Positions 1 to 19,848 of a stretch of 64,000 nucleotides of DNA are shown one piece after another. Position numbers and translations under genes: made by a program. A model generated the notes under the pieces. That model was not told where the DNA came from. It worked only from the letters and a program-made list of their open reading frames with translations, and searched no databases. The stretch's first letter is position 1. The number at the start of each line of letters is the position of its first letter. The stretch covers positions 186,001 through 250,000 of the forward strand of contig CAMBSD010000002.1 in assembly GCA_945870425.1 (NCBI GenBank), written 5' to 3'. The DNA is from Chitinophaga pinensis (GTDB lineage: Bacteria > Bacteroidota > Bacteroidia > UKL13-3).

Positions 1-224
1 GCATGGATAATTGCAACTGAAGATAAAGAATTAAGTAGGTACCTCAATAGTTTATTTAATGCAAAATTTACTTGATTGTGGTTATTAGAATTGAAATCAT
101 AAAAGCCACTTTGATTAAAGCATAAACACAGTACATCAAAATTTTGAAACAAAAAAGCAGTAGCTAATCCTACTATACCAATTAAGACAAATAACAATTT
201 TGTAGAATAATTATTATACGGCAT
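1..224 (-). CDS. Exosortase F-associated membrane protein, N-terminal part (runs off window)
   Basis: Open minus-strand frame from an ATG at 222-224 to the window edge, 74 complete codons. It begins with a hydrophobic stretch (residues about 10-26). A second hydrophobic stretch near residues 57-74 contains NKLLRYLLNSL, which resembles the conserved RxxLN segment I recall for the small membrane proteins encoded next to XrtF. The start overlaps the end of the XrtF gene by 11 bases, so the two are probably translationally coupled. The C-terminal half is outside the window. Family assignment rests on the short motif and on the neighbour; membrane location is well supported. Confidence 0.6.
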   Translation of the reverse strand, partial: MPYNNYSTKLLFVLIGIVGLATAFLFQNFDVLCLCFNQSGFYDFNSNNHNQVNFALNKLLRYLLNSLSSVAIIH

Positions 225-744
225 CTTCGTTAAAATTTGACCCACCATATGTATTTACCCAAAAAATAAACAGTAAAAATACTAAGGTATAAATAAGCGC
301 TGTGAAGGCATATTCATGAAAGAAAGAAAACCATTCGTGATGATTCAAGGCCACATAAAATAAGGTAGAAACCCTCAAAACATTTAATAAGAAAACACCA
401 AATAGTCCAATGGATAAAAATAGAACTTTTGATTTTATTGCTCCTTTAAATGACAATATGGATGCAAAAAAGATAATCATGACACTTACTCCATTGCATC
501 CTTCACTCACTGTTATATAATTCACATTGTTTAAGTAAAATAAAATTCGTGGTTGTAAATCTGAGTATAACAGCGAAACATCATAACCTATTGAAATCAA
601 TATTTTCTGAGAAACCATTGCAACCAATTCAGAAATTCCATCAATTTGATTGCCTAAAAAACTTATCCAAAGCAAATAAAGAAGGTTTAGGAGAAGATAA
701 ATACCTATAAATTTTGAAGCAAAAACAATAAGTTTCTTTTGCAT
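214..744 (-). CDS. xrtF: Exosortase family protein XrtF-like
   Basis: Polytopic membrane protein of 176 residues. It carries the exosortase/archaeosortase catalytic triad: Cys83 in SEGCNGVSV, Arg124 in LNVLRVSTL and His143 in FFHEYAF, each at the edge of a membrane segment, with the end FIFWVN typical of XrtF. Exosortases cut a C-terminal sorting signal and are thought to pass the protein to a surface anchor or glycan. The ATG at 742-744 is chosen; the longer frame to 801 would begin with TTG and overlap the upstream aminotransferase by 46 bases. It lies 11 bases after that gene and overlaps its probable partner (1-224). No substrate with a recognisable sorting tail was found in the window. 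Confidence 0.82.
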   Translation of the reverse strand: MQKKLIVFASKFIGIYLLLNLLYLLWISFLGNQIDGISELVAMVSQKILISIGYDVSLLYSDLQPRILFYLNNVNYITVSEGCNGVSVMIIFFASILSFKGAIKSKVLFLSIGLFGVFLLNVLRVSTLFYVALNHHEWFSFFHEYAFTALIYTLVFLLFIFWVNTYGGSNFNEDAV

Positions 745-755
745 AATAAAAACAA

Positions 756-1904
756 TTATGACAGACCTTGAGACCTTAGTCCCCCAATCAAATTTCCACA
801 AATTTCCTTTAACAATGTTTCATTCATTTCTGTATGAATAGGCAATGATAGCACTGATTGGGTGGCGAGTTCTGACATTGGAAAATCTAAAATATTATTA
901 TTTTTTGAAGAGTAAGCCAATTGATTACACGCAACTATCGGGTAATAAATCATGGTTTGAATTCCCCTTTCTAATAAATAACTTCGTAGTTTATTCCTAT
1001 CAACTTTTTTTGACAAGCTAATGGTATATTGATGGAAAACATGTGTTGAATACCTATTTCTAAAAGGGATTTTTACATATTCATTATTTTCAAAGTATGA
1101 ATCATAGTGTTTAGCTGCCTCATTCCTTTTGGCTTCGTAAGAATCTAAATGTTTTAGTTTGACCCTTAATATGGCAGCTTGCAAACTATCTAATCTCGAA
1201 TTAACTCCAATCATTTCATGAACGTATAGTTCTTTTTGACCATGATTGGCTATCTTTCTTATTTTCCGAGCTAATTCATCATCATTGGTCATGATTGCCC
1301 CTCCATCTCCCATGCAACCTAAGTTTTTCGATGGAAAAAAAGAAGTCGTACCTATATGTCCAATGGCACCTGTTCGCTTTTTATCACCATTAGAAAAAGT
1401 ATAAACTGTACCTAAAGATTGAGCATTATCTTCAATGATAAATAGATTGTATTTTATAGCTATCTGAACAATTGCCTCCATTTCAGAACTCTGCCCAAAA
1501 AGATGAACTGGAATAATTGCTTTGGTTCTAGAAGTTATTTTTGATTCAATTTTTCTTACATCTATGTTGTAGGATTGAATATCAATATCAACCATTATTG
1601 GGCTGAGACCTAGCAAAATAATAACTTCAATGGCTGATGGGTAAGTAAAAGCAGGAACAATCACTTCATCACCATATTTCAATCCTAATGCCAATAATGC
1701 AATTTGAATGGCATCTGTACCATTACCACATCCAATGATATGCTTTACTCCTAAATAATTGGATAGCTCATTTTCAAAATAAGCAACTTCCTTTCCTTTT
1801 ACAAAAATTGAACTTTCGATTACATCTTGGATAGCATTGCCTAGTTCGGATTTTATTTTTGCATGCTGACTTTTAAGGTCAACCATTTGAATTTTCACAT
1901 CCAT
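756..1904 (-). CDS. DegT/DnrJ/EryC1/StrS-family PLP aminotransferase, WbpE-like
   Basis: A 382-residue sugar aminotransferase. The N-terminus (MVDLKSQHAKIKSEL), the NGTDAIQIAL segment, the EDNAQSLG segment and the PLP-lysine segment FFPSKNLGCMGDGGA match the WbpE/WlbC branch, which aminates C3 of UDP-3-keto-GlcNAcA to give UDP-GlcNAc(3NH2)A. The N-acetyltransferase and oxidoreductase genes needed on either side of this step lie directly upstream (1904-2482, 2508-3515). The ATG shares one base with the preceding stop (TAATG), indicating translational coupling. The exact substrate is inferred from family and context. Confidence 0.85.
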   Translation of the reverse strand: MDVKIQMVDLKSQHAKIKSELGNAIQDVIESSIFVKGKEVAYFENELSNYLGVKHIIGCGNGTDAIQIALLALGLKYGDEVIVPAFTYPSAIEVIILLGLSPIMVDIDIQSYNIDVRKIESKITSRTKAIIPVHLFGQSSEMEAIVQIAIKYNLFIIEDNAQSLGTVYTFSNGDKKRTGAIGHIGTTSFFPSKNLGCMGDGGAIMTNDDELARKIRKIANHGQKELYVHEMIGVNSRLDSLQAAILRVKLKHLDSYEAKRNEAAKHYDSYFENNEYVKIPFRNRYSTHVFHQYTISLSKKVDRNKLRSYLLERGIQTMIYYPIVACNQLAYSSKNNNILDFPMSELATQSVLSLPIHTEMNETLLKEICGNLIGGLRSQGLS

Positions 1905-3524: not shown

Positions 3525-4661
3525 CTATTTTTGATTTAAAACTTCAAGAATGGTAGAAACTACAAGCTCCAAATCGGAGGTTGAAAGATTAGATCCTGAA
3601 GGCAAACAAAGACCATTATCAAAAAGTTTGGCCGAGGTTCCATCACCATAAAATGGATACTTTTCGAATATGGGTTGCAAGTGCATTGGTTTCCACAATG
3701 GTCGTGATTCTATATTCTTTTTATCTAGAGCTAACCTTAAATCTTCACGAGTTATCCCATCTGTTTCATTTGGATTAACTACGATACACGTCAACCATCT
3801 GTTACTAAAAGAGCCTTCAGGTTCATTATGAAAACTGACTCCATTTAAATTTGACAATTTAGATTTATAAAACTCAAAATTCGATCTTCTTTGCGCAACC
3901 CTATCATTTAATACAGTCATTTGGCCACGGCCAATTCCGGCACAAACATTACTCATTCTATAATTATAACCTATTTGTGAATGCTGATAATGAGGAGCAT
4001 TATCCCTTGCTTGTGTTGCTAGAAAACGTGCCTTATTAATATGAGCCTCATTGCTTGAAATCAAGGCTCCACCACCAGAAGTGGTAATTATTTTATTTCC
4101 ATTAAATGACAATACACCCAATTCTCCAAATGTTCCACAAGCTTGTCCATTTAAAGTGGATCCTAAACCTTCAGCTGCATCTTCAATTATTGGAATTTCA
4201 TATTCTTTAGCAATGGCTACTATTTCATCCATCTTTGCTGGCATTCCATAGAGATGAACTGGTATTATTGCTTTAGGTTTCATGCCATTCTTAATTCTAT
4301 CTTCGATAGCTAAGCTAAGATGTTTTGGGCACATATTCCAAGTGTCTTCTTCCGAATCAATAAAAATAGGAATAGCTCCTTGATAAGCTATTGGATTCGC
4401 AGAAGCAGAGAAAGTAAAACTTTGACATAAAACCTCATCACCTGCACCAACGCCTAGCATAATTAAAGATAAATGAATGGCAGATGTACCTGAACTTAAT
4501 GCCGCAGCATATCCCGATTTTGTAAAAGACACTAAATCTTTCTCAAAACCATCCACATGAGGACCTAATGGTGCGATCCAATTGGTTTCAAATGCTTCTT
4601 TAACATTTTCAAATTCTTTACCACACATATGTGGCGATGAAAGCCAAATTTTATTGTTCAT
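3525..4661 (-). CDS. DegT/DnrJ/EryC1/StrS-family PLP aminotransferase, PglE-like
   Basis: A 378-residue aminotransferase of a different branch from the one at 756. The opening KIWLSSPHMCGKEFENVKEAF and the segment NWIAPLGPHVDGFE resemble PglE-type enzymes, which aminate C4 of UDP-4-keto-6-deoxy-GlcNAc. The PLP-binding lysine is in FNGNKIITTSGGGAL. Two NeuD/PglD-type acetyltransferases (5787, 13032) and a PglC-like transferase (13681) belong to the same locus and would suit a bacillosamine-like sugar, but no dedicated PglF-type 4,6-dehydratase is present. Its ATG overlaps the preceding stop (TAATG). Confidence 0.82.
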   Translation of the reverse strand: MNNKIWLSSPHMCGKEFENVKEAFETNWIAPLGPHVDGFEKDLVSFTKSGYAAALSSGTSAIHLSLIMLGVGAGDEVLCQSFTFSASANPIAYQGAIPIFIDSEEDTWNMCPKHLSLAIEDRIKNGMKPKAIIPVHLYGMPAKMDEIVAIAKEYEIPIIEDAAEGLGSTLNGQACGTFGELGVLSFNGNKIITTSGGGALISSNEAHINKARFLATQARDNAPHYQHSQIGYNYRMSNVCAGIGRGQMTVLNDRVAQRRSNFEFYKSKLSNLNGVSFHNEPEGSFSNRWLTCIVVNPNETDGITREDLRLALDKKNIESRPLWKPMHLQPIFEKYPFYGDGTSAKLFDNGLCLPSGSNLSTSDLELVVSTILEVLNQK

Positions 4662-5152
4662 TATTGTCTATTATTTATTTTATCAGCCAAATTTTTATTG
4701 AATATATAAATTAAAAAAGGCAGTGTTGGAAATTGGAAAATAAACTTGCATAAAATATCTACTCTACTATAGATGTTAGAACCAATCCATTTAACCAAAT
4801 GTATATCTGCTTGCCCACAAAAATAACTAATGGTTCGTACAGCAAATAAGATTACAAGGAAGGACAGAAGTAAATTGATATAAACCCTATCATTCAATAA
4901 TAAATGAATTTTATATTGCAAGAACAGGCTTGGTAGGAAAATAAGTAGGTTTGAGAAAACGAGCATGTTCAAAAAAATATTATTGTTAATATTAAATTGA
5001 AAAAGAACATTATCATCGTTTTTCACCAATTCGCCTAAATTTTTCAAGAAATATAAGTTTCCAGATTCCACCTTGAAATTATAAATATTTCCTAAATAAT
5101 TTATTATGGCGTAAGCAATAACAAACAATCCAATTACAATTTTTTTATTCAT
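4661..5152 (-). CDS. Small multi-pass membrane protein following an exosortase
   Basis: A 163-residue protein, mostly hydrophobic, with about four predicted membrane segments (near residues 5-20, 55-80, 90-110 and 140-155). I do not recognise a conserved domain. It overlaps the end of the exosortase gene at 5145-5729 by 8 bases and is coupled to the next aminotransferase by TAATG. Small membrane partners next to exosortases are common, so a role with that exosortase is likely but inferred from position only. Confidence 0.6.
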   Translation of the reverse strand: MNKKIVIGLFVIAYAIINYLGNIYNFKVESGNLYFLKNLGELVKNDDNVLFQFNINNNIFLNMLVFSNLLIFLPSLFLQYKIHLLLNDRVYINLLLSFLVILFAVRTISYFCGQADIHLVKWIGSNIYSRVDILCKFIFQFPTLPFLIYIFNKNLADKINNRQ

Positions 5153-5729
5153 TTACTACTGTTGATTTTTTATGTGTTTTATTTTGAAGAATGGTCCATC
5201 TATGCCAAAGCCACAATATATAGCCATAAACGATAAACATAAAAGTGTAATGATGATGAAAATCGGCTTGTTTCTTGTCAAATATTGAAACCCATGCAAT
5301 AACAATAATTCTTACTAAATTAAGAATATAAATACTAACTAACCCAAAAGTAAGAAATGTAACCAACTTTTTTCGCCCGCCAAATGCAAATAGAAATCCT
5401 AAGAATAATGCAAATAATTCAACTCCATTGCAGGCACTCGCAATTCCAATTATAGGCTTATTATTAATGGATATATAAAGTTCATTTTGTTTTCCTTCCT
5501 CTCTTACAAGAGTTTTAGTGAAACCTTCATCCAATTTTGCATCATAACCCATTTGTCTTAAAACAAATGCTGTCATCTTTGCCTCTATTTTGGTCATAGG
5601 ATCATTTATTTGATTTTCCTTAAAGATAATTCCATAAAAAAGCATCCAGCCAAACCAAATCAATAATGCTTTTAATAAAAACACTATAAGGGGTTGCTTA
5701 ATAAAATCTAAAATCTTATTTTGTTCCAT
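5145..5729 (-). CDS. Second exosortase/archaeosortase-family protein (not XrtF-type)
   Basis: A 194-residue polytopic membrane protein with the exosortase triad: Cys100 in ASACNGVELFAL, Arg140 in LNLVRIIVIAW, and a histidine in the run H158-H160 before YTF. The longer N-terminal extramembrane segment (residues about 35-95) and the ELFALF context differ from the XrtF-like protein at 214-744, so this is a separate subfamily, possibly of the XrtX or XrtY kind. The following small membrane protein overlaps it by 8 bases. Substrate unknown. Confidence 0.8.
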   Translation of the reverse strand: MEQNKILDFIKQPLIVFLLKALLIWFGWMLFYGIIFKENQINDPMTKIEAKMTAFVLRQMGYDAKLDEGFTKTLVREEGKQNELYISINNKPIIGIASACNGVELFALFLGFLFAFGGRKKLVTFLTFGLVSIYILNLVRIIVIAWVSIFDKKQADFHHHYTFMFIVYGYILWLWHRWTILQNKTHKKSTVVNE

Positions 5730-5786: not shown

Positions 5787-6401
5787 TCATCCTCCAATTT
5801 CTTTGGCTGGCACACCGGCTATTATACTATTATCTGGCACGTCTTTAGTAACAACAGAACCAGCACCAATCTTGCACCACTTACCTATTTTAATATTTGG
5901 AAGCACCACTGCACCAGAACCAATAAAAGTTCCTTCCCCTATTCTAACATTGCCTGAAATATGCACCCCAAACATTATTGAAACAAAATCCTCTATTACC
6001 ACATCATGTCCTATAGTTGAATTAATATTAATTATCACATGGTTGGCAATTGATATATCAACTGTAAGGACTACAGCCTGACAAATTATATTACCTTCTC
6101 CAATTTGAATGGAAGAATTAATTTTAACGCTGGGATGAATTAGATTGACATATTTAATATCTTTATTTCTATTTGTGATGTCTTTTCTTATTTCTGTATC
6201 GGCAATGGCAACAATACAAATACTCTTATTGATAGCATTTTTAATTAATGGCAAATTTTTAAAATTATCACATTGCTTAAAATCATCAATAAATCCATCT
6301 ACAACATAATTTGATATTTCCGAGATTAGCCAAAGTGTCTCCATACCCATTCCACCAGCTCCATATATCCATAAATGGGTTTTATTATCTGTCATATTCA
6401 T
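5787..6401 (-). CDS. NeuD/PglD-family sugar O/N-acetyltransferase (copy 2)
   Basis: A 204-residue protein. The N-terminal Rossmann-like UDP-sugar binding half begins HLWIYGAGGMGMETLWLI; the C-terminal half is a left-handed beta-helix of hexapeptide repeats ending in IAGVPAKEIGG. This is the architecture of NeuD and PglD, which acetylate a sialic-type sugar or UDP-4-amino sugar using acetyl-CoA. A paralogue lies at 13032-13676. Being close to the PglE-like aminotransferase, it may acetylate that enzyme's product. ATG at 6401, or an in-frame ATG at 6395. Confidence 0.82.
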   Translation of the reverse strand: MNMTDNKTHLWIYGAGGMGMETLWLISEISNYVVDGFIDDFKQCDNFKNLPLIKNAINKSICIVAIADTEIRKDITNRNKDIKYVNLIHPSVKINSSIQIGEGNIICQAVVLTVDISIANHVIININSTIGHDVVIEDFVSIMFGVHISGNVRIGEGTFIGSGAVVLPNIKIGKWCKIGAGSVVTKDVPDNSIIAGVPAKEIGG

Positions 6402-6431: not shown

Positions 6432-6902
6432 TCAAAGTAATTCGCTTATTTTCTCAAGTTCAACCACTAAAGAATTATATTGGAATTTAACAAATTTAAT
6501 GTCCTTTACATTTCTAAGCATTCTGGCAAATTGATTAATTATTAAATTGAAAACAGAATATCCATATTTATTTAGATATTCTTGATGGGCTTCATTTAAT
6601 GCCAAATGAATAATGTTTATAGTATCATTTTCTTTAACATACAATAGTACACCTATCAACAAATTATTATTGCTTTTATCTACCACAAATAATGTTTGTT
6701 GGTTGAGATTATCTGAATCTAGTCGAATTGTTATTTGATTATTTTCTACAACTACTTTTGGCTTCCCATATTTATCTATCGTTTTTACAATCTTGGTTCT
6801 ATATCTTTTCTGATTTGAATTGAAAAAAAATACATCCTGCAATTCTTCAGCAGCTTGGATACTTATTGAAGGTGCCAACACCCAATCAAATTCAAAATTC
6901 AT
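6432..6902 (-). CDS. Hypothetical protein, GNAT-like features
   Basis: A 156-residue soluble protein I cannot assign. Residues about 75-115 (a strand LLIGVLLYVKEND, a strand INIIHLALNE, then a helix LNKYGYSVFNLIINQFARML) have the strand-strand-helix pattern of GNAT acyltransferases, but the acyl-CoA loop is not clear. It is encoded 5 bases after the MBL-fold hydrolase at 6908 and before a NeuD-type acetyltransferase. If it is an acyltransferase, it could use the acyl group built by the carrier-protein genes upstream; this is inference. Confidence 0.6.
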   Translation of the reverse strand: MNFEFDWVLAPSISIQAAEELQDVFFFNSNQKRYRTKIVKTIDKYGKPKVVVENNQITIRLDSDNLNQQTLFVVDKSNNNLLIGVLLYVKENDTINIIHLALNEAHQEYLNKYGYSVFNLIINQFARMLRNVKDIKFVKFQYNSLVVELEKISELL

Positions 6903-6907
6903 AGATA

Positions 6908-7525
6908 TTATGTAACTTGATTAGAAGTCAATTCGTGCCCTGTGAATATTCTACCGTGGCCTGAGCAAACAATAGTATTTTCATTGATGTAACTATAAAT
7001 AATATTTAAACTATCAATATTAACCAATTTATTTCCTCCTTTCAGCTTTGTAACCACAGGCACATTTGGTATAAACGAATCTCCTGTAAACAAATAGTTG
7101 CCGATTTTATAGGTTAAACATCCCAAATTATGACCAGGCGTTTCAATTATTTCTAATTTGCAATTTGAAAACAATTCAAATTCATCCTTTTCTTTTATTT
7201 CCTTGGTCAAAGTCCCTTCAAATACAATTGGGCTTTCATGATAAAATGAAAGGTTCATCTTATCTGAATACAAGCCTTCAATGGTATGATTCGAGGCATA
7301 CACAACACAATTTGGATACTTGGCAATTAGCTTATTAATTCCATAAATATGGTCGTAATGATAGTGTGTTATAAAAACACCTTTAACAAATTTATCTTCA
7401 GATAGTATTTCATTTACCTCTTCAAAATTACCAACATCAACTAACCACACATATCTCTCACTTTCATCCGAAAGTATGTAGGTATTTGAAGTAAAAACAG
7501 GATGAATTATCTGACGAACATCCAT
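6908..7525 (-). CDS. MBL-fold metallo-hydrolase (glyoxalase II-like)
   Basis: A 205-residue metallo-beta-lactamase fold protein with the metal motif HYHYDH in FITHYHYDHIYGINKL, a second ligand in ETPGHNLGCL, an aspartate in FTGDSFIP and a late histidine in CSGHGRIF. Members hydrolyse thioesters among other substrates. It is encoded 3 bases downstream of a carrier-protein gene (7529-7747), so cleavage of an acyl-carrier thioester is a reasonable inference; a general glyoxalase II-like role is the alternative. Confidence 0.82.
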   Translation of the reverse strand: MDVRQIIHPVFTSNTYILSDESERYVWLVDVGNFEEVNEILSEDKFVKGVFITHYHYDHIYGINKLIAKYPNCVVYASNHTIEGLYSDKMNLSFYHESPIVFEGTLTKEIKEKDEFELFSNCKLEIIETPGHNLGCLTYKIGNYLFTGDSFIPNVPVVTKLKGGNKLVNIDSLNIIYSYINENTIVCSGHGRIFTGHELTSNQVT

Positions 7526-7528
7526 TAA

Positions 7529-7747
7529 CTAACCCATAAAATCAAGGATATCCTTAACAGTATTAAAGCCTCTAATATGTTCACCTGTTAACTTTTTACT
7601 AAACTCTTCATCACAAAGAACAATAAGCGTTAATTTAGCCATTGAATCATATTCAGCTATTTCTGAGAGAACGGTATTTTCATTGATAGTAGCGCCTTCA
7701 ATTTCTAGGGTCTCTTCAATTAGAGCAATTTTTTCTTGATTTGTCAT
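7529..7747 (-). CDS. Acyl carrier protein 1
   Basis: A 72-residue acidic helical protein. The phosphopantetheine serine is in EYDSMAKLTLIVL (the DSM version of the usual DSL), followed by the helix II pattern of acyl carrier proteins. It lies among two SDR reductases, an MBL-fold hydrolase and a KAS III gene, so it probably carries an acyl intermediate for polysaccharide decoration rather than for bulk lipid synthesis. A second, different carrier protein is at 9287-9520. Confidence 0.85.
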   Translation of the reverse strand: MTNQEKIALIEETLEIEGATINENTVLSEIAEYDSMAKLTLIVLCDEEFSKKLTGEHIRGFNTVKDILDFMG

Positions 7748-7773
7748 ATATTATAAATTTAAATTGTTGTATT

Positions 7774-8526
7774 TTAAGATGATAAATACCCGCCATCAAC
7801 AGGTAAAGAAATTCCAGTAATAAACTTGGAAGCTGGGCAAAGTAAAAATGCAATAGCATTTGCTACATCTGTGGGCTCGCCCAATCCTAAATATTGTCTA
7901 TTTAAAATATTATCTACCCCTCCACTCATCTGCAAAAGATTAGCATACTCAGGTGTATTAATTTGTGATGGAACAACTGTATTTAATCTAATTTTTTTAT
8001 TAGCCAATTCTTTGGAAAGGCATCGAACTGCTGCTTCAACAGCTGCTTTTGAAGCTGAATAAGCTGTCACACTAGCCCCTCCTGCATGCGAAGCAATTGA
8101 AGAAACACCAACTATGCTTAGACCATCATTAAAATTAGCCTTCTTTGTAATGCATCTAATCATTTCTATAAATGAACCAAAATTAACATCCATTACATTC
8201 CTAATTTCTTTAATAGAAAGTAACGACAATGGTCTTCTTGATCTTATTCCAACACAATTCACAAATCCATCAAACTTTCCACAAATTGAAACTATTTCAT
8301 TTACTTTATTCTCTATATTTTCTAAATCAGCTAAATCATAACAAAAATATTTATGACCATTACCCACAAGCATGGTCATGGTATTTTGCAGCCTTTCCTC
8401 ATTTGTAGCAACCAGAACCAATTTAGCTCCCAAATTACTCAACAAAATAGCAGTTTCTTGACCAATACCAGCTGAAGCGCCAGTGACCATAATTAATTTA
8501 TCACTAAAAGAAACTAAATGTTGCAT
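7774..8526 (-). CDS. Short-chain dehydrogenase/reductase (FabG-like) 1
   Basis: A 250-residue classical SDR: cofactor motif TGASAGIGQET near residue 16, NFGSF region, active-site YSASKAAVEAAV (Tyr-x3-Lys) and the C-terminal GISLPVDGGYLSS typical of FabG-like enzymes. The likely reaction is NADPH-dependent reduction of a 3-ketoacyl thioester on a carrier protein, forming a 3-hydroxyacyl group. It directly abuts the related SDR at 8527 with no gap; the pair look like tandem duplicates that have diverged. Confidence 0.85.
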   Translation of the reverse strand: MQHLVSFSDKLIMVTGASAGIGQETAILLSNLGAKLVLVATNEERLQNTMTMLVGNGHKYFCYDLADLENIENKVNEIVSICGKFDGFVNCVGIRSRRPLSLLSIKEIRNVMDVNFGSFIEMIRCITKKANFNDGLSIVGVSSIASHAGGASVTAYSASKAAVEAAVRCLSKELANKKIRLNTVVPSQINTPEYANLLQMSGGVDNILNRQYLGLGEPTDVANAIAFLLCPASKFITGISLPVDGGYLSS

Positions 8527-9282
8527 TTAAATTGAATACCCCCCATCATGTATTATTGAAGAACCCGTTATCGTTTTAGTAGCATCACTCAACAAAAAGC
8601 AAACCGTATTCGCAATTTCTATCGGTTCAATTACACCTAGTATTTGCTTCGCAAAATCCTCATTCTTATTTAACTCCATATTATCTTGAATAAAATCTAA
8701 TTTCATATCTGAAGTAACCCATCCTTTGAGAATTGAATTGATACGAATTTTCTTTTCGCTCAATTCAGCAGCCATACCTCGGATAGAAGCATCAAGAGCA
8801 GCTTTTGAAGCAGAATATGAAATTTTTGATTTAAGTCCTTTTATGCTACTAACAGATGATATAGCCACCATGCTTCCTCCATTGTTGAAAAATCCCTTTT
8901 TGGTAACACACCTTACTATTTCCACAAATGAGTATAAATTAGCATTCATCATATCGTGTATAAATGCATTTTTAGTTAATTGCAGTGGCCTAACACCACC
9001 TTTACCAGCACAATAGACAAAACCATCAAAGGCTCCAAATGTTAGATTTAATTGCTTAATATTTACTTCAATTTCAGCATTATTATAAAAATCGAAAGTA
9101 TGATAACTCAATTGAGGGTTGCTTAATTTGTTAAAAATATCTTTTACTTTATCTTCGAAACAATCCACCATAATAACATTGGCTCCAAGTGATAAAATCT
9201 GCTTCACTATTGTTTCACCAGTTTCGGAAGATGCACCAACAACTAATATTCTTTTGTTGGATAAATCCATTGGGTTTATCAT
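8527..9282 (-). CDS. Short-chain dehydrogenase/reductase (FabG-like) 2
   Basis: A 251-residue SDR with cofactor motif VVGASSETGETIV (an altered glycine motif, Ser-Ser-Glu-Thr-Gly), active-site YSASKAALDASI and the end GSSIIHDGGYSI. The ATG at 9280-9282 is chosen; the longer frame to 9312 would start with TTG and run 26 bases into the carrier-protein gene. It shares strong layout similarity with the SDR at 7774. It may catalyse a second redox step on the same acyl group; its substrate is not known. Confidence 0.83.
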   Translation of the reverse strand: MINPMDLSNKRILVVGASSETGETIVKQILSLGANVIMVDCFEDKVKDIFNKLSNPQLSYHTFDFYNNAEIEVNIKQLNLTFGAFDGFVYCAGKGGVRPLQLTKNAFIHDMMNANLYSFVEIVRCVTKKGFFNNGGSMVAISSVSSIKGLKSKISYSASKAALDASIRGMAAELSEKKIRINSILKGWVTSDMKLDFIQDNMELNKNEDFAKQILGVIEPIEIANTVCFLLSDATKTITGSSIIHDGGYSI

Positions 9283-9286
9283 GGTA

Positions 9287-9520
9287 TTAATTGCTAGCTT
9301 TAAGTTTTTCAACCAAATTCAAAATAGCTTCAACCGAATTAAAGTTCTCTGGTTTTAATTCAGTTACCCTTATAGATATATTATATTCATCATTTAATTC
9401 AGATATGATACTTACTATATCAAATGAATCTAACAATCCATCATCAATAAGCTTTTTCTCATTTGCAAAATCCACATCGGGTCTAATGCTATCAAGTATT
9501 TCAATTATTCTGTTTTGCAT
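9287..9520 (-). CDS. Carrier protein 2 (PCP/DltC-like)
   Basis: A 77-residue carrier protein. The phosphopantetheine serine lies in LIDDGLLDSFDIVSII, the LDS context being typical of DltC-like and stand-alone peptidyl carrier proteins served by a free adenylation enzyme. The adenylation gene (10385) and a formyltransferase gene (9532) are immediately upstream in the operon. It most likely accepts the amino acid activated by that enzyme; an acyl group is the alternative. Confidence 0.85.
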   Translation of the reverse strand: MQNRIIEILDSIRPDVDFANEKKLIDDGLLDSFDIVSIISELNDEYNISIRVTELKPENFNSVEAILNLVEKLKASN

Positions 9521-9531
9521 AAAATTATTTT

Positions 9532-10380
9532 TTATATTTTCACCAATTTATCTAAGATGAACTCAATGTTACCTTTATTTAAAATAAATGTTTGTCCTGA
9601 ATTAGTTAAATCAAAACCATTTTTCGTTTCCAATGTCTCAGACATTTTATATTTATTAACTTGATATTTATTACCATTAAACTCAAACCAAACTAATCCA
9701 AGCGTTTCTAGCGGTCCATAATCCATTGACCGCAAAAATGCGCTAATCTTACTATGATTCCATCCCAAGTTTAGCTCTCCATTATTGGGCTTCTGCCATG
9801 AGTAGTATAACGCCAGTTCTTTAGTTGTTTTTTTTATTTCTTTTTTAATTTCAAGATTTAATGTATCAATTATGCTATCAAAAGAATCGGTGGCAAGTTT
9901 TGTATATTCTCGGAGCAATGAGAAAGAAGTAGTTTTAATTGAAATTGAAGTTTCCATCTGAATTAGAATTTTTCCAGCATCTATTTCGGGAACAACAAGG
10001 TGCCAACTAATACCTCCAATACTTTCCTCTTCAAAAATTGCCCATGCTTCAGCATTTCTTCCAGGAAACTTAGGTAATAAAGAGCCATGAAAATTAATTA
10101 AAAGTAAATTTTCTTTATCAATTATTTCCTTTGGAAAAATATATCTATTTGAAGCACTAACAATTAAAGTTGACTCTGTAATATTATTTAAATAATCAGT
10201 AAGTTCCACTTTATTTAAATTTTTATAGCTTATTTCATTTTTTGAACAAAAATTTTCAGATGAAATACTGCTACCTTTCCTACTTTCAATCATTATAGGA
10301 CATAAGCCTCTATTCTTAAGTATTAAAGCACAATTACAAGCAATTGTGCCAACTCCAATAACGATGTACTGATTAAACAT
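9532..10380 (-). CDS. Methionyl-tRNA formyltransferase-like N-formyltransferase
   Basis: A 282-residue protein with the formyltransferase catalytic set Asn96, His98 (INFHGSLLP) and Asp134 (PEIDAGKI). The spacing (2 and 36 residues) equals that of the Asn-His-Asp triad of E. coli methionyl-tRNA formyltransferase. It uses N10-formyl-tetrahydrofolate to formylate an amine. It is not the housekeeping enzyme by context: it lies between a free adenylation enzyme and a carrier protein. Candidates are an aminoacyl carrier (as in the formylation-adenylation-PCP start module of linear gramicidin synthetase) or a UDP-amino sugar (as in VioF/QdtF-type enzymes). ATG at 10378-10380; the frame up to 10392 starts only at TTG. 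Confidence 0.8.
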   Translation of the reverse strand: MFNQYIVIGVGTIACNCALILKNRGLCPIMIESRKGSSISSENFCSKNEISYKNLNKVELTDYLNNITESTLIVSASNRYIFPKEIIDKENLLLINFHGSLLPKFPGRNAEAWAIFEEESIGGISWHLVVPEIDAGKILIQMETSISIKTTSFSLLREYTKLATDSFDSIIDTLNLEIKKEIKKTTKELALYYSWQKPNNGELNLGWNHSKISAFLRSMDYGPLETLGLVWFEFNGNKYQVNKYKMSETLETKNGFDLTNSGQTFILNKGNIEFILDKLVKI

Positions 10381-10384
10381 TCCT

Positions 10385-11914
10385 TTATCCAATTGATTTA
10401 TTTTTATACTTTTCTTTCAATAAAGTTCTATCAATTTTTCCATTTAAATTATAAGGAAGTTCATCCAACTTTATAATAATATTTGGAAACATAAATTTAG
10501 GAATTCTATCTTTAATTTCATTTAAAATGTACTTATTGTCGGCCTCTTTTCCTTGAAATATACTGACAATTTTTTGTTTATCGTGGTCATAAAAACAAAA
10601 TGAGGCATCAATTTTTTCTAGTGAATTTATTAAGATTTCTATCTCCCCTAATTCAACCCTTTGACCCATGTGCTTAACCTGGTTATCTTTTCTTGACAAA
10701 AACATAATTTCGCCATGCTCATTAAACCTAGCCAAATCTCCTGTTCTGTAAATGGCTTCAGGATAATGCGGATTTAATGGATTTTGGCAAAAGGCCTCAC
10801 TCGTTTTCTCAGGATTATTATAATAACCTAAAGCTAAACAACATCCTCTCACGCAAATCTCACCGATTTCATTTCCAGATACCGGTTTGTTTTCCGAGTT
10901 TAATAAAAGTATTTCAGTATTTTTAAATGATATTCCTATAGGAAGCACCTCATCATCCGCAAATGGCTTTTCTATCTTATAATAAGTGCATACAGATGTA
11001 ATTTCAGTTGGCCCATACAAGTTAACAAAAAGGGTTTCAGGTAATGATTTACGCCAATAGTTTAACACTTTATTGTGCATCACCTCACCTGAAAACATCA
11101 CCTTGCTTAAGTATTGCGGCTTATTAGTTTCAAATGTATTAGAGTTTGCCACAAGGGCTATTGCTGCCGCTGACCATAAAATAGAATCAATTTTATTTTT
11201 ATTTAAAAACTCAATCAAATTTGCTTGAAATAAAAAGGCAGATTTAGGAATAAGATGCATAGTTCCACCTGTTTTTAAGGTGCAATAAATATCTTTAATA
11301 GACGCATCAAAATAAAATGGATTTTGGTTTCCAAACACATTTGACTCGTTAAACCCAAAAGTACTTACCAATACATCAGTCATATCAATTACCGATTGAT
11401 GACAAGTAATTACACCTTTAGGTATTCCTGTTGAACCAGAAGTAAAAGTTGCATATAATGGATCTCTATCAATCGCTTTTCTTCTTACCACTCCTAAAAG
11501 ATTTTCATCAATTCCTTCTTGAATGACCTCTTCATAAACAAGAGATAATAAATGGGGTGCAACACTTTTTGCAAAGTCTAAATCATTCTTCAATACAACT
11601 GTTGCTATGGGATTCAGTGTTTGCAGTATCAACTCTATTCTAAGTTTAGGCATTTGTATATCTATAGGAACATAAAAGTTTCCACTATATGCAACACCCA
11701 TAAACGAAACTAAACTTTCAATATTCCTATCAACAAACACTACAATAGGATTCTTGGTTGTATTATTTGTATTAAGTAAGATTTGAGTCCCAATCCTTTG
11801 TGCATTTTGCTTTAAACGAGCGTAGCTTATACTGTTTTTTTCATCTGCAAAAACGGTTTTTTGAGGGTATTTTTTTTCTGATTCCTCTAAATATTCAAGT
11901 ATGTTGTAAATCAT
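10385..11914 (-). CDS. Stand-alone adenylation enzyme (amino acid/acyl carrier-protein ligase)
   Basis: A 509-residue ANL-superfamily enzyme with the standard adenylation motifs in order: TFTSGSTGIPKGVI (A3), NLYGPTEIT (A5), YRTGDLARF (A7), DNQVKHMGQRVELGEIE (A8) and NLNGKIDRTLL with the late catalytic lysine (A10). No condensation or carrier domain is fused. It is like DltA and free NRPS adenylation proteins, which activate an amino acid as AMP ester and load it on a separate carrier, here probably the one at 9287. The substrate cannot be read by eye. Confidence 0.87.
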   Translation of the reverse strand: MIYNILEYLEESEKKYPQKTVFADEKNSISYARLKQNAQRIGTQILLNTNNTTKNPIVVFVDRNIESLVSFMGVAYSGNFYVPIDIQMPKLRIELILQTLNPIATVVLKNDLDFAKSVAPHLLSLVYEEVIQEGIDENLLGVVRRKAIDRDPLYATFTSGSTGIPKGVITCHQSVIDMTDVLVSTFGFNESNVFGNQNPFYFDASIKDIYCTLKTGGTMHLIPKSAFLFQANLIEFLNKNKIDSILWSAAAIALVANSNTFETNKPQYLSKVMFSGEVMHNKVLNYWRKSLPETLFVNLYGPTEITSVCTYYKIEKPFADDEVLPIGISFKNTEILLLNSENKPVSGNEIGEICVRGCCLALGYYNNPEKTSEAFCQNPLNPHYPEAIYRTGDLARFNEHGEIMFLSRKDNQVKHMGQRVELGEIEILINSLEKIDASFCFYDHDKQKIVSIFQGKEADNKYILNEIKDRIPKFMFPNIIIKLDELPYNLNGKIDRTLLKEKYKNKSIG

Positions 11915-11925
11915 ATTATTGCTGA

Positions 11926-13020
11926 TTATAATTCTTTCATTGATCTGATTATTCCTTCTTCAAAAACAGAATCATCCTCTATAATGGGAAGTATATCTGA
12001 TGTGTTTATTTTTGCTGAAAAAGCCCCCCAAGACAAGCCAACACCAAATGCACAGAAAAGTGTGTTTAATTCTTTTCCTTCCACATTGCCAAAGGTATCA
12101 CATAAGGTTACAATAGGAGATGCACCTGAGGTGTTGCCATATTTACTTAAGGTAAGGGGCATTTTATCTGCAGGAATTTTTAGCTTTTTTGCGATTTGTT
12201 GTAGTATATATAAATTTGCCTGATGAAAGGCATAACAATCGTAATCATCTACGCTTGTGTTTGTTAATGCCCAGAAATCTTTCATTAACTTAGGAATATC
12301 AGAAATGGTAAAAGTAAATACAGATGTACCTTGCATTATAGAATTATGAAGATTTCTTTCGATGCCATCATGGCAAATTTCATTTTCGTGGCTTGCATCA
12401 ATATTTCTGTAAGCCCCGCCTGGTACTATTAAATACCTGTATCCATTGCCATCAGATCTTACAAGAGAAATGATAGGACTAGCATCATTTGTTTTTTCCA
12501 ATAAAATGGCTACACTTGATTCTCCAATGAGCATAATAGAGGCCCTATCTATGGGATTGGTTGTTTTTCCAGTAGTATCACCAATAATTAATAAAGCTTT
12601 TTTTATATCAGAGCTATTCATCATTGAAGCTACGGTTTGAATACCATATACAAATGCTGAGCATCCCAAACTGATATCAAAAACAGCTGTATCAATAGAA
12701 AGTCCAAGTCGCTTATGCACAATAGAGGAAGATCCTGGTCGTCTATAGTCTGGACTATGGGTACCAAATACCAGAGCACCTATTTCATTTCTATCTATAT
12801 TCTTATGTTGAAGTAATTTTTCTGCTGCCACATATCCCAAATCAGAGGCTGTTTGATATTTAGAAGTTCTTCGAGTTTCTGTAATTCCAGTCATTAACAT
12901 AAACTTATCAACCTCTTCAGCACTAAAAATATCTTTAAATGATTCTGTTTTAGTAATATTACTTGGCATAGCGCAGGCCATACCTGAAATTTTTATGTTG
13001 TCAAAATTAAATATTGGCAT
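11926..13020 (-). CDS. 3-oxoacyl-ACP synthase III-like (KAS III/FabH family)
   Basis: A 364-residue thiolase-fold enzyme with the KAS III triad Cys120 (ISLGCSAFVYG), His266 (YAFHQANLY) and Asn296 (KYGNTSGAS). It condenses an acyl-CoA starter with malonyl-ACP, giving a short 3-ketoacyl-ACP. With two SDRs and a carrier protein in the same operon, it could supply a short 3-hydroxyacyl group, such as 3-hydroxybutyryl, for decorating an amino sugar. Its place inside a polysaccharide locus argues against a housekeeping FabH. Confidence 0.88.
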   Translation of the reverse strand: MPIFNFDNIKISGMACAMPSNITKTESFKDIFSAEEVDKFMLMTGITETRRTSKYQTASDLGYVAAEKLLQHKNIDRNEIGALVFGTHSPDYRRPGSSSIVHKRLGLSIDTAVFDISLGCSAFVYGIQTVASMMNSSDIKKALLIIGDTTGKTTNPIDRASIMLIGESSVAILLEKTNDASPIISLVRSDGNGYRYLIVPGGAYRNIDASHENEICHDGIERNLHNSIMQGTSVFTFTISDIPKLMKDFWALTNTSVDDYDCYAFHQANLYILQQIAKKLKIPADKMPLTLSKYGNTSGASPIVTLCDTFGNVEGKELNTLFCAFGVGLSWGAFSAKINTSDILPIIEDDSVFEEGIIRSMKEL

Positions 13021-13031
13021 ATCTATACATT

Positions 13032-13676
13032 TTAAAATTCTGTTCTTTTTGCTGGATTTCCCATATATAAAAATCCATCCTTTGTCTTGGTAATTACTAA
13101 ACTGCTTGCTCCAATACGAGTATTTGAACCTATCTTAATATTCTGCAAAACAATTGCCCCAATACCAAAAAAATTCATATCACCTATTTTTACTCCACCA
13201 GAAATACGTGCTAATGGCATAAATACATTATATGACCCTACCTCAACATCGTGAGCCAGAGCAGAAATACTGTTGAACTGATTGAAATCACCTATAGAAA
13301 CATCACATGAAAAGGAACAACCTCTAATTACCACATTTCCTTTTCCAATTTTAAAAGTTATTGGATCTGCAAATGCTACTTCAGGGTGAATAATATTAGG
13401 GAAATCAATGTGGGGATTAATAATCTTATCTACAATTAATTTAATTACCTTAGGGCTACCAATAGCAAAAACTATTGAAAGTGATTGAGGCCAGTTTTGC
13501 AACTCATCGATACCACCTAATACGCTACCAAAATGTGAAATTTGTGTTTCCTTCTCAACGCTATCATCAAAGAATCCAATGATATTCCAAGTTTCCTTTT
13601 CAATATTGATTTTCTCGATTAGGCAAGCTACCTCTTTACCAAATCCTCCAGCACCATATATGGCTATTTCTTTCAT
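13032..13676 (-). CDS. NeuD/PglD-family sugar acetyltransferase (copy 1)
   Basis: A 214-residue protein with the same two-part build as the gene at 5787: an N-terminal nucleotide-sugar binding half (AIYGAGGFGKEVACLIEKI) and a C-terminal hexapeptide-repeat beta-helix ending YMGNPAKRTEF. It lies between the KAS III gene and the PglC-like transferase. It probably acylates the amino sugar transferred by the latter. Whether the donor is acetyl-CoA or a longer acyl group is open. Confidence 0.83.
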   Translation of the reverse strand: MKEIAIYGAGGFGKEVACLIEKINIEKETWNIIGFFDDSVEKETQISHFGSVLGGIDELQNWPQSLSIVFAIGSPKVIKLIVDKIINPHIDFPNIIHPEVAFADPITFKIGKGNVVIRGCSFSCDVSIGDFNQFNSISALAHDVEVGSYNVFMPLARISGGVKIGDMNFFGIGAIVLQNIKIGSNTRIGASSLVITKTKDGFLYMGNPAKRTEF

Positions 13677-13680
13677 TTAA

Positions 13681-14289
13681 TTAATTATTGCCGTTAAATG
13701 GCTCAAATTTAATTGAATCACTTGAAGTGATATCTTTCCTTTGAACTACATTCTTTATTGTAAAAATAATAATTTTAATATCTGTTACAAACGAAATATT
13801 ATCAACGTACCAAACATCTAATTTAAACTTTTCTGACCATGTAATCGCATTACGTCCATTGCATTGGGCCCAACCTGAAATGCCAGGCTTCACTTCATGT
13901 CGTCTTGTTTGCTCTTGAGAATATAACGGAATATACTTTTCTAAAAGTGGTCTTGGACCAATTAAAGACATCTGCCCAAAAAATACATTCAAAAACTGAG
14001 GCAATTCATCCATAGATGTAGTCCTTAATAATCTTCCAAGGCCCGAGGTCCTTTCCTCATCAGGTAGTAGCTTTCCACTAGCATCTTTGGTATCAGCCAT
14101 TGTTTTAAATTTATAAATTTTAAACAAGGTTAGATTTTTACCTGTTCTGGTTTGCTTAAAAAACACACCCGATCCCTTATTGAAAAATAGCAATAAGATA
14201 ATAATCATCAACATAATTGGACTTAAAACCAATAGCGCAATAAAGGAAATAAGTATATCGAATAATCTTTTAAAAATAAATTTATACAT
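13681..14289 (-). CDS. Initiating sugar-1-phosphate transferase (PglC/WcaJ family, small form)
   Basis: A 202-residue bacterial sugar transferase. An N-terminal hydrophobic re-entrant helix (about residues 8-35) follows the KRLFDILIS motif; the catalytic core includes KFKTM, TSMDELPQFLNV (Asp-Glu pair), GPRPLL and KPGISGWAQ. It links the first sugar phosphate to undecaprenyl phosphate at the inner face of the inner membrane. The small size without extra N-terminal helices is PglC-like, which fits an acetamido sugar such as a bacillosamine derivative. It is 4 bases after the NeuD-type gene's upstream neighbour, in a tight operon. Confidence 0.9.
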   Translation of the reverse strand: MYKFIFKRLFDILISFIALLVLSPIMLMIIILLLFFNKGSGVFFKQTRTGKNLTLFKIYKFKTMADTKDASGKLLPDEERTSGLGRLLRTTSMDELPQFLNVFFGQMSLIGPRPLLEKYIPLYSQEQTRRHEVKPGISGWAQCNGRNAITWSEKFKLDVWYVDNISFVTDIKIIIFTIKNVVQRKDITSSDSIKFEPFNGNN

Positions 14290-17857: not shown

Positions 17858-18919
17858 CTAATTTTCAATAATTACTTCTTTTAATAACCTAAATATTTTC
17901 TCTGAAGAGTATTCATCTCTTACATTTATTGCTTGGTTTCTTAATTTAACTTGTAACTCAGGATCTGAAATTAATAATTTAAGCTTGTTATATAATTCAT
18001 CTAAATTTCCAGTTTCATAAAGTAAGCCATTTTCTCCATCTATAATAATTTCTCTTGGTCCAGCCACACAATCACTGCTAATGCAAGCCAAAGGAACCGA
18101 CATGGCTTCTAATAAAGCATTTGGAAAACCTTCATAATACGAGGGCAATACAAAAATACTTGCACTGCTTAAAATTGATAAAAAATCTCTCTGGTAACCA
18201 TGAAAAACCACCTTTTCTTCTATGCTCAAATCCTTTGCAAGCTTTTGCAAATTTTTCATTTCGGGTCCATCGCCAACAATTTGCAATGTCCAATCTAATG
18301 TTTTTAAATTCGAAAACGCTTGAATTAAATCCTGATGCCCTTTTTCTTTTGATAATCTGCCAATGGTCACAATATTTTTTTCATAGCTTTTACTACTCAA
18401 ATCTATTGGATTCAAAACATTTGGAATAACATAAATGCCAGACAAGTTATACTTGTTTTCAAATATTTGCTTGGCTCTTTGGGTTTGAACAATAAGACCA
18501 TCTGCAAGTTTGTATATCCTTCTATTGAAGAACTCAATGAATTTACCCAAATATAAATTGGGTCCCATTCTATTTGTAATAAATGTTTTTAGGTTTAAAA
18601 ATCTTGTTGCAATTAAAACATATGAATTAAACCAATCACCAACAGAAATAACAACATTAGGTTTGTATTGCTTAACATTTTTCCTTATAAAAGGTATGAG
18701 CCTTGCAGCATAAATAAATTTATTCGTTTTTTTTCTATCAACATCAGGCCATATAATCAAAATACTCGGATGTATATCGAAAAATATTTCTGTCTTAAAA
18801 AGGCAAATTATTACAACTTCAAAACCATTCAAGGCAAACTCATTCGCCCAGTTACTCAATGCCCTTTCCTGACCTCCTCCTGATAACCCTCCACCAATAA
18901 AACAAATTTTCTTTGTCAT
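17858..18919 (-). CDS. GT4-family glycosyltransferase
   Basis: A 353-residue GT-B enzyme with N-terminal CFIGGGLSGGGQERALSNW, the donor-domain start NIVTIGRLSKEKGHQDLI and the EX7E region PSYYEGFPNALLEAMSVPLAC, the usual GT4 layout. It starts exactly where the ATP-grasp gene ends (ATG overlapping TAA by one base) and abuts the deacetylase-like gene. Donor and acceptor unknown. Confidence 0.87.
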   Translation of the reverse strand: MTKKICFIGGGLSGGGQERALSNWANEFALNGFEVVIICLFKTEIFFDIHPSILIIWPDVDRKKTNKFIYAARLIPFIRKNVKQYKPNVVISVGDWFNSYVLIATRFLNLKTFITNRMGPNLYLGKFIEFFNRRIYKLADGLIVQTQRAKQIFENKYNLSGIYVIPNVLNPIDLSSKSYEKNIVTIGRLSKEKGHQDLIQAFSNLKTLDWTLQIVGDGPEMKNLQKLAKDLSIEEKVVFHGYQRDFLSILSSASIFVLPSYYEGFPNALLEAMSVPLACISSDCVAGPREIIIDGENGLLYETGNLDELYNKLKLLISDPELQVKLRNQAINVRDEYSSEKIFRLLKEVIIEN

Positions 18920-19848
18920 TAAGACACTTTCAAATCAAGTAATTCACCGTATTTATAATCCATTTCTATAGGACGTATTTGGTCAAATCCACCTCCATGA
19001 TGCTGTGTTATCTCTCCAAAATATAATTTCCCATCAACATCATAAAAATCAACCCTCACATATTGAAAATCCTCCCCTATTTTTTCAGCAATTTCAATCA
19101 TTCTTCCCAAGGTAGAAGGTGGGTTAATTTCCTCTCCTCTAAGGTGTGCAATATCTTTACTTTTTAGCGCCCATGTAAAATATAATGGATTCCAATCTTT
19201 GTCATAAATATTTCTTTTATTCTTTCCTTCTCTATCAATTGAAACATATATGAAGGCAACTTTTCCATTGATAACATTTAATTTAAAGTCGTTGGGTATT
19301 TCACCATTAGCCTTTAATAAAAGCTTTTCGATAACAATACGTGGCTTAATATTTTTATATTGCCATTCTCTATCAACCAAATAATAATTTCTAGTCAGCC
19401 ACCACCTGCAATCCAAAAAAAACTTATTAAAATCAACCTTACTTTTATCCTTTATTATCAAATAACTTCCTGAGTCGTGGGTAGCCTTTACAATACAAGG
19501 GTAATCAGGTATATTACTTAAAGTAATATCCTTATAGTTTGAAGTTACAAAGGCTAGTGGAATTAATAAATCTTCTCCAAATTCCTTATCAATGTAATCT
19601 CTTACACCGTGCTTATCCGCCAATATAGAATGGAAGTTTGATCTATCATTTATTTTCAACCATTGAATTTTTTCATTTAAAGTTTTAGGCTTATCCAAGT
19701 CTAATTCATAACCCTGCATGGCTTTAAAATGTTTTTTTAGATAATCAATATCTGTTAGTCTTTCGTATTTGATAAATCTATATATCCTATAAATATATTT
19801 GTAAATCAAAAAACCAAAATTCCCTTTATACTTTAACGTTTGAAACAT
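18919..19848 (-). CDS. TupA-like ATP-grasp protein (probable amide ligase)
   Basis: A 309-residue protein. KPKTLNEKIQWLKINDR, CIVKATHDSG, PRIVIEKLLL and the metal-site region VRVDFYDVDGKLYFGEIT are the landmarks of the TupA-like ATP-grasp family, named after the teichuronopeptide protein that joins a peptide to a uronic acid polymer. ATP-grasp enzymes form amide bonds through an acyl phosphate. It overlaps the HAD gene by one base, which overlaps the HisC-like gene, so the three act together. I infer amidation of a uronic acid in the polysaccharide by an amine made by the other two. Confidence 0.8.
   Translation of the reverse strand: MFQTLKYKGNFGFLIYKYIYRIYRFIKYERLTDIDYLKKHFKAMQGYELDLDKPKTLNEKIQWLKINDRSNFHSILADKHGVRDYIDKEFGEDLLIPLAFVTSNYKDITLSNIPDYPCIVKATHDSGSYLIIKDKSKVDFNKFFLDCRWWLTRNYYLVDREWQYKNIKPRIVIEKLLLKANGEIPNDFKLNVINGKVAFIYVSIDREGKNKRNIYDKDWNPLYFTWALKSKDIAHLRGEEINPPSTLGRMIEIAEKIGEDFQYVRVDFYDVDGKLYFGEITQHHGGGFDQIRPIEMDYKYGELLDLKVS

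Follow-up and report, generated by a model that had tools for sequence, protein, structure and literature searches.

A candidate amino-acid-fed acyl cassette in a glycan locus of a Bacteroidota genome

The viosamine island of Pseudomonas syringae, which includes vioS, vioB, vioR and acp, places a 3-hydroxybutyryl group on a 4-amino sugar, and mutants in vioA, vioB and vioR lack the modified sugar (PMC3927599). The R-group of Qui2NAc4NR is the predicted product of the wfpC-wfpG cassette in the Flavobacterium psychrophilum O-polysaccharide R1 locus, and the R-group genes differ between strains (PMC6519341). Groups derived from amino acids are also known from bacterial glycans, including N-acetyl-alanyl, N-acetylglycyl and N-(3-hydroxybutyryl)-alanyl groups (PMC3210612), and the N-formyl-L-alanyl group of the Vibrio anguillarum O2 antigen (PMC10059132). 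A search of the open-access literature turned up no account of genes that use carrier proteins to assemble such glycan groups from amino acids. The present work concerns ten tightly packed, co-directional genes on the minus strand (13676-6432) of a glycan locus in a 64,000-nucleotide stretch of a Chitinophaga pinensis assembly (contig CAMBSD010000002.1, positions 186,001 to 250,000; hereafter the window, with all positions counted from its first letter). We read the ten genes as a cassette for an acyl group, or R-group, in which a dissected nonribosomal peptide synthetase (NRPS) initiation module is combined with a minimal type II fatty-acid unit, a reading to which we assign a probability of roughly 0.5. 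The cassette would offer a concrete route to carrier-borne, amino-acid-derived N-acyl groups of glycans.

Gene families were assigned with Pfam and NCBIfam profile searches, and orthologues were found in two further Bacteroidota genomes, one from the same family (G006; contig JAKRSG010000278.1, locus L010) and the other a single-contig genome of 4.2 Mb from another class of the phylum (G365; locus L165). The block opens with a PglD/NeuD-type N-acyltransferase (PglD1, 13032-13676; TIGR03570 at 165 bits, above cut-off; orthologues at 67% identity in L010 and 64% in L165), followed by a KAS III condensing enzyme (11926-13020; PF08541/PF08545, NF006829 at 200 bits; orthologues at 71-72% in L010 and L165) and a free-standing amino-acid adenylation enzyme of DltA/NRPS-like type (10385-11914; PF00501, TIGR01733 at 311 bits; orthologues at 70-71%), which scores 291 bits against the DltA-family model, below that model's cut-off of 476. 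The adenylation gene overlaps by 8 bases with a formyltransferase gene (9532-10392; PF00551, Formyl_trans_N, at 59 bits), and next is a DltC-like, peptidyl-type carrier protein (PCP, 9287-9520; NF003464 at 42 bits, PF00550; orthologues at 68-70%). Two short-chain dehydrogenase/reductases (SDRs) come after it, of which SDR1 (7774-8526) is a FabG-like reductase with full motifs, and SDR2 (8527-9312) has kept Ser-Tyr-Lys and is without the usual glycine-rich cofactor motif. A second acyl carrier protein (ACP2, 7529-7747; weak matches of about 25 bits to NCBIfam ACP models; orthologues at 64-68%), a GloB-like hydrolase of the metallo-beta-lactamase (MBL) fold (6908-7525; PF00753, Lactamase_B, and TIGR03413) and a small protein (6432-6902) complete the set. 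Catalytic residues are intact in KAS III (Cys120/His266/Asn296) and the formyltransferase (Asn100/His102/Asp138), as are the serines of the two carriers (DSF in the PCP, DSM in ACP2) and the HxHxDH motif of the MBL hydrolase (THYHYDH), so that a KAS III, an ACP, a reductase and a PglD/VioB-type acyltransferase all adjoin each other with intact active sites. Intergenic gaps, from a PglC gene on one side of the block through a second PglD gene (PglD2) on the other, range from -26 to +30 bases, and the -26 overlap vanishes if SDR2 begins, as it probably does, at a downstream in-frame ATG within 8527-9312.

The cassette shares with the viosamine island a KAS III, a reductase, an ACP and a VioB/PglD-type acyltransferase, but the island lacks counterparts of the adenylation enzyme, the formyltransferase, the second carrier and the MBL hydrolase. 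Similarly, the R1 cassette of F. psychrophilum is a glycan-locus set of ACP, KAS, ketoreductase and a PglD homologue that acts before a PglC homologue, but its product, a 3,5-dihydroxyhexanoyl group, is built from acetate units without an amino-acid arm. A close parallel to that arm is the initiation module of the linear gramicidin synthetase LgrA, in which formylation, adenylation and PCP domains provide the three activities predicted here and the amino acid is loaded and formylated on its carrier; in LgrA, however, these domains are fused in a single NRPS and are followed by a condensation domain, whereas the cassette consists of separate proteins, encoded in a glycan locus, with a KAS III in place of that domain. 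The formylated amino acid of the V. anguillarum O2 antigen resembles the group proposed here, with no KAS III extension implied. A DltA-like enzyme and a DltC-like carrier are also shared with the D-alanylation (Dlt) system; neither DltB, an MBOAT protein, nor DltD was seen among the cassette proteins and the neighbours scanned, and membership of the Dlt system was rejected for that reason, the cassette using an N-acyltransferase instead.

In the proposed pathway, the adenylation enzyme would charge the DltC-like carrier with one amino acid, and the formyltransferase would then add a formyl cap to the amine of the aminoacyl group. KAS III would condense the capped aminoacyl group with malonyl on the second carrier, and SDR1 would reduce the resulting beta-keto group, with the atypical SDR2 serving as its partner or in a second step, to give a 4-formamido-3-hydroxyacyl, or statine-like, thioester. 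The cap would have a chemical reason, because a free gamma-amine on a thioester would be expected to close to a lactam, which the cap would prevent. The MBL hydrolase, whose nearest named family is the thioester-cleaving GloB, may act in editing by removing misloaded thioesters. A dehydratase of the CapD/PglF type and the aminotransferase DegT1 would supply a UDP-4-amino-6-deoxy sugar, and PglD1 would attach the finished group to its 4-amine, after which the PglC-like enzyme would load the acylated sugar onto the lipid carrier. The parts of this scheme differ in strength. Comparison of sequences supports the classes of the enzymes, the integrity of their active sites, the amino-acid type of the adenylation enzyme, the co-inheritance of the genes in a glycan context and the equivalence of the slot for the cap enzyme, and the carrier chemistry is predicted with good support; the extension to a single product by KAS III and the reduction steps is an extrapolation, as are the identity of the amino acid and the editing step. 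We infer the acceptor sugar because DegT1, the PglC-like enzyme and, beyond the window, a dehydratase of CapD/PglF size accompany the cassette.

The same gene set, in whole or in large part, also occurs in other polysaccharide loci. All ten genes are present in G006 in identical order and at 36-71% identity (PglD1, KAS III, adenylation enzyme, formyltransferase, PCP, SDR2, SDR1, ACP2, MBL hydrolase and small protein, then an aminotransferase). Eight of the ten are found in G365, sited between PglC and an aminotransferase and with their order kept (PglD1 64%, KAS III 72%, adenylation enzyme 71%, PCP 68%, SDR2 50%, SDR1 51%, ACP2 64% and MBL hydrolase 45%). Two genes of the block break the match to the window, that of the cap enzyme and the final one; after the MBL gene, a hexapeptide protein and a DUF218 protein precede the aminotransferase (67%). 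Because gene order is conserved in these two other genomes, the cassette is not a chance assemblage. The cofactor motif of SDR2 is lost in all three copies (window, 8527-9312; L010, 5190-5930; L165, 8695-9453) with Ser-Tyr-Lys kept, and SDR2 may be a non-reducing partner.

A shorter, diverged relative was found in Paenibacillus cellulosilyticus (L182), in the order ACP, SDR, AAC(3)-like N-acyltransferase, adenylation enzyme (38%), GNAT, PCP (42%), KAS III (31%) and MBL hydrolase (30%); the ACP is 36% identical to ACP2, and the one SDR corresponds to SDR1. It is flanked by the release-factor-2 gene prfB and by yitT/arg genes, and no sugar genes were seen within 17.5 kb of it. Because of this position, the chemistry is not exclusive to glycan loci. 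Conservation of the genes outside any glycan locus had been named as evidence against the original reading, and it is seen in part: the full Bacteroidota version is so far confined to such loci, but the diverged core set of adenylation enzyme, GNAT cap, PCP, KAS III, MBL hydrolase, ACP, SDR and N-acyltransferase in Paenibacillus is not. That set, together with the NRPS- and fatty-acid-synthase-like nature of the parts, would suit a small-molecule operon for a secondary metabolite that merely happens to lie in a glycan locus. We consider this very unlikely, since the three Bacteroidota copies all adjoin amino-sugar genes, two of them (window and L165) directly after PglC, since PglD1 belongs to a family of sugar N-acyltransferases, and since genomes of the same family carry alternative acyl cassettes in the same slot.

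One difference among the copies concerns the enzyme encoded between the adenylation enzyme and the PCP. In the window and G006 this slot is occupied by the formyltransferase, whereas in G365 it is taken by an unrelated GNAT of 268 amino acids (PF00583 at 54.8 bits, cut-off 20.7), and the Paenibacillus set likewise has a GNAT between the adenylation enzyme and the PCP; the two GNATs are homologous to each other (E 1e-10). Because formyltransferase and GNAT alternate in one slot while the adenylation pocket stays unchanged, the slot enzyme most likely caps the amine of the loaded aminoacyl-carrier, the GNAT probably with acetyl, and the formyltransferase most likely acts on the aminoacyl-carrier rather than on a sugar. 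As a natural experiment, the exchange of caps gives a clue to the substrate of the formyltransferase. The GNAT of G365 and Paenibacillus could also be thought to join 3-hydroxybutyryl, made on the ACP by KAS III and SDR, to the amine of the aminoacyl-PCP, with PglD then moving a dipeptide-like N-(3-hydroxyacyl)aminoacyl group to the sugar, and N-(3-hydroxybutyryl)-alanyl-Qui4N is a known structure (PMC3210612). This is improbable, because the formyltransferase in the slot of the window and G006 would block the amine, and yet KAS III, the SDRs and ACP2 are retained at 48-72% identity between the formyltransferase and GNAT versions.

In NRPS adenylation domains, Asp235 binds the amino group of the substrate amino acid. 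Alignment to LgrA, which is also the best match of the adenylation enzyme in the Protein Data Bank (PDB), places Asp203 as the counterpart of this residue. The three Bacteroidota copies share Asp203, whereas Thr or Ser takes its place in the ligases that belong to sister cassettes of glycan loci (L050, L051 and the capsule-type Parabacteroides locus L183). The pocket as a whole (D-A-K-L/M-M-S-L-S-V-K) is unchanged across the three copies, formyltransferase and GNAT versions alike. The assignment of the enzyme to the amino-acid type is thus supported at the level of aligned residues, and a role as a plain acyl ligase was rejected on the strength of Asp203 and the TIGR01733 match. Because the pocket is identical in the two versions and Asp203 is kept, it is probably the same amino acid that is capped in two ways. 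The pocket lysine hints weakly at an acidic amino acid, although a pocket-code reading is not firm; Lys207 is found as well in a gut DltA-like protein that adjoins an Asp/Glu racemase.

Several points weigh against the proposed cassette function. The usual starters of KAS III enzymes are acyl-CoAs, and the use of a carrier-bound amino acid by this one is an assumption. The cofactor motif of SDR2 is degenerate, and the Paenibacillus copy is not next to sugar genes. Furthermore, the best PDB match of the formyltransferase by sequence is a sugar enzyme, GDP-perosamine formyltransferase (55 bits), which, together with the glycan locus, would fit an ordinary sugar formyltransferase of the VioF/WbkC type unconnected to the carrier chemistry. 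This explanation has little probability, given that the gene lies between those for the adenylation enzyme and the PCP in both genomes that have it, overlapping the former, and that a GNAT replaces it elsewhere. In a tree of 34 formyltransferases, the window and G006 enzymes group with NRPS-fused formyltransferases and that of a plasmid-borne set of adenylation enzyme, ACP and formyltransferase (92/92), and topology tests gave approximately unbiased p-values (p-AU) of 0.030 when they were constrained with E. coli ArnA and 0.051 when constrained with order-level glycan formyltransferases; the NRPS-type enzymes of the tree were, however, chosen by similarity to the query, so that the 92/92 and the p of about 0.03-0.05 are only moderate evidence. 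The formyltransferase was also modelled with AlphaFold, but the model was of low confidence (pLDDT 50) and was left unused.

Two separate acyl groups from the two arms would also fit. Here, the adenylation enzyme, formyltransferase and PCP would make an N-formylaminoacyl group and KAS III, ACP2 and SDR a 3-hydroxyacyl group, and PglD1 and PglD2 would place them on two amino sugars. Each kind of group is known singly in glycans (PMC10059132; PMC3210612), and because such groups occur there, two-group and dipeptide-like products keep some plausibility; the window, moreover, contains WbpB/LbH genes and a pair each of PglD and aminotransferase genes. However, the conserved block of G006 and G365 contains only one PglD, and in Paenibacillus both arms are kept although the set includes just one N-acyltransferase, so that we regard two products as unlikely. 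The carrier arm (adenylation enzyme, cap enzyme, PCP) and the condensing arm (KAS III, ACP, SDR) co-occur from Bacteroidota to Bacillota, and because they stay together even in Paenibacillus, a single product is favoured. The specific proposal of surface glycans bearing a group that is part amino acid and part polyketide (a statine-like 4-formamido- or 4-acetamido-3-hydroxyacyl), made on a fully dissected line of NRPS and fatty-acid-synthase parts in which KAS III extends a capped aminoacyl-carrier and the cap enzyme is exchangeable between formyltransferase and acetyltransferase, is tentative, and stands somewhat short of an even chance.

The cassette can be placed as an amino-acid-fed member of a known family of glycan acyl cassettes that is anchored experimentally by the P. 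syringae viosamine island. In two genomes of the same family (G007, L086; G008, L085), a simple ACP-KAS-SDR-PglD cassette occupies the same slot from PglC to DegT1, the full order being PglC, ACP, KAS III, SDR, PglD, aminotransferase, WbpB, LbH and a second aminotransferase. Locus L174, with two KAS III genes, ACP, SDR and PglD, matches F. psychrophilum R1 in its reported gene content, and L050 and L051 each combine PglD and an acyl ligase with pairs of KAS III, ACP and SDR genes, L051 having an MBL gene as well. On a tree of KAS III sequences, the enzyme from the window falls together with those from the glycan loci L010, L050 and L051 (SH-aLRT 100). The expectation that an acyl or aminoacyl group is built on carrier proteins and passed to an amino sugar ahead of the PglC-like transfer is strengthened in its outline by the three glycan-adjacent genomes and by the simpler cassettes in the same slot, and is sharpened by an amino-acid-type adenylation enzyme and a formyltransferase that would cap the aminoacyl-carrier; what is attached may be an extended acyl of two parts, beyond the plain acyl or aminoacyl group that had been envisaged. 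A modular family of simple, ligase-fed and amino-acid-fed cassettes would allow the N-acyl chemistry of a glycan to be predicted from gene content.

The amino-acid-fed version is rare in the sampled genomes. Within the order, the formyltransferase was found in 2 of the 64 genomes sampled, with no additional genome among 395 of the phylum, and a scan of genome contigs with the formyltransferase alignment, limited by its short patterns, returned the G006 contig only. A search with the adenylation enzyme found G365 alone among 294 class-mates and 80 family-mates, and a scan of viral contigs gave no matches. The KAS III search matched 58 of 395 genomes of the class. Several of the matches lie in glycan loci, and many belong to a common operon of the order KAS III-ACP-KAS III-SDR that has no obvious glycan genes nearby; in L053-L089 this Bacteroidia operon is accompanied by two genes for proteins of about 309 and 225 amino acids.

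The genes surrounding the cassette include those for PglC, DegT, WbpB and glycosyltransferases. The PglC-like polyprenyl-phosphate sugar-1-phosphate transferase, a small phosphoglycosyl transferase for the first sugar transfer (13681-14289, minus strand; PF02397 at 203 bits), is 57% identical to its counterpart at the same place in L165. DegT1 (3525-4661, minus strand), an aminotransferase of the PglE-LegC kind that would make the 4-amino group, scores 384 bits with TIGR04181, below the cut-off of 420, and its homologues follow the cassette in L010 (74%, partial) and L165. The dehydratase of CapD/PglF size (672 amino acids; G000:C2:182249-183124) lies on the same strand 2.9 kb outside the window. 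The gene for PglD2 (5787-6401, minus strand; TIGR03570 at 191 bits) is probably not part of the core cassette, because it is absent from the contiguous block in the gene maps of L010 and L165. All of the genes named in the original prediction (KAS III, adenylation enzyme, formyltransferase, two carriers, two SDRs, MBL hydrolase and two PglD-type acyltransferases) proved to be present on the minus strand as described, and so did the gene at 6432-6902, which had been called a GNAT-like unknown; the GNAT part of that name is weakly supported. The protein has no Pfam match, and the GNAT signal is a weak one of 18.7 bits in its L175 homologue; its top Foldseek matches are GNATs, which, given a predicted model with a pLDDT of 61, is a weak hint. 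It is 37% identical to the L010 copy, and relatives, found in L166 and L175, adjoin KAS III/ACP genes in other loci.

Other genes of the glycan locus include an exosortase-family XrtF gene (214-801, minus strand; TIGR04128, above cut-off), an XrtX/XrtF-like gene of the same family below cut-off (5145-5729, minus strand), which with a membrane neighbour (4661-5152) lies between the cassette and the aminotransferase, and a TupA-like ATP-grasp gene (18919-19848, minus strand). It is possible that the exosortase genes link the glycan to protein anchoring. Outside the window, a further free-standing set with an adenylation enzyme, a carrier and a formyltransferase lies on the Agrobacterium salinitolerans plasmid NZ_CP109970.1 (L092), where genes for an acyl-CoA dehydrogenase, an alpha/beta hydrolase, an AMP-binding enzyme with a pocket of amino-acid type (DLHFLCLIAK), an ACP and a formyltransferase stand in a row. 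The capsule-type gut locus on the Parabacteroides distasonis plasmid NZ_OY725812.1 (L183) has a PglD1-like acyltransferase (51%), two carriers, an acyl ligase, KAS III and SDR. Finally, three bacterial-looking human-gut contigs filed as 'Bacteriophage sp.' (MT837917, MT837966 and MT836540; L178, L179 and L181) carry Dlt-like operons with a DltC-like carrier and a DltA-like enzyme at 41-44% identity to that of the window. An MBOAT gene is present in both of those checked (L178 and L181), of which L178 also has an Asp/Glu racemase and L181 a pyridoxal-phosphate fold-III enzyme between the adenylation enzyme and the PCP, and these operons suggest modification of the wall with amino acids other than alanine.

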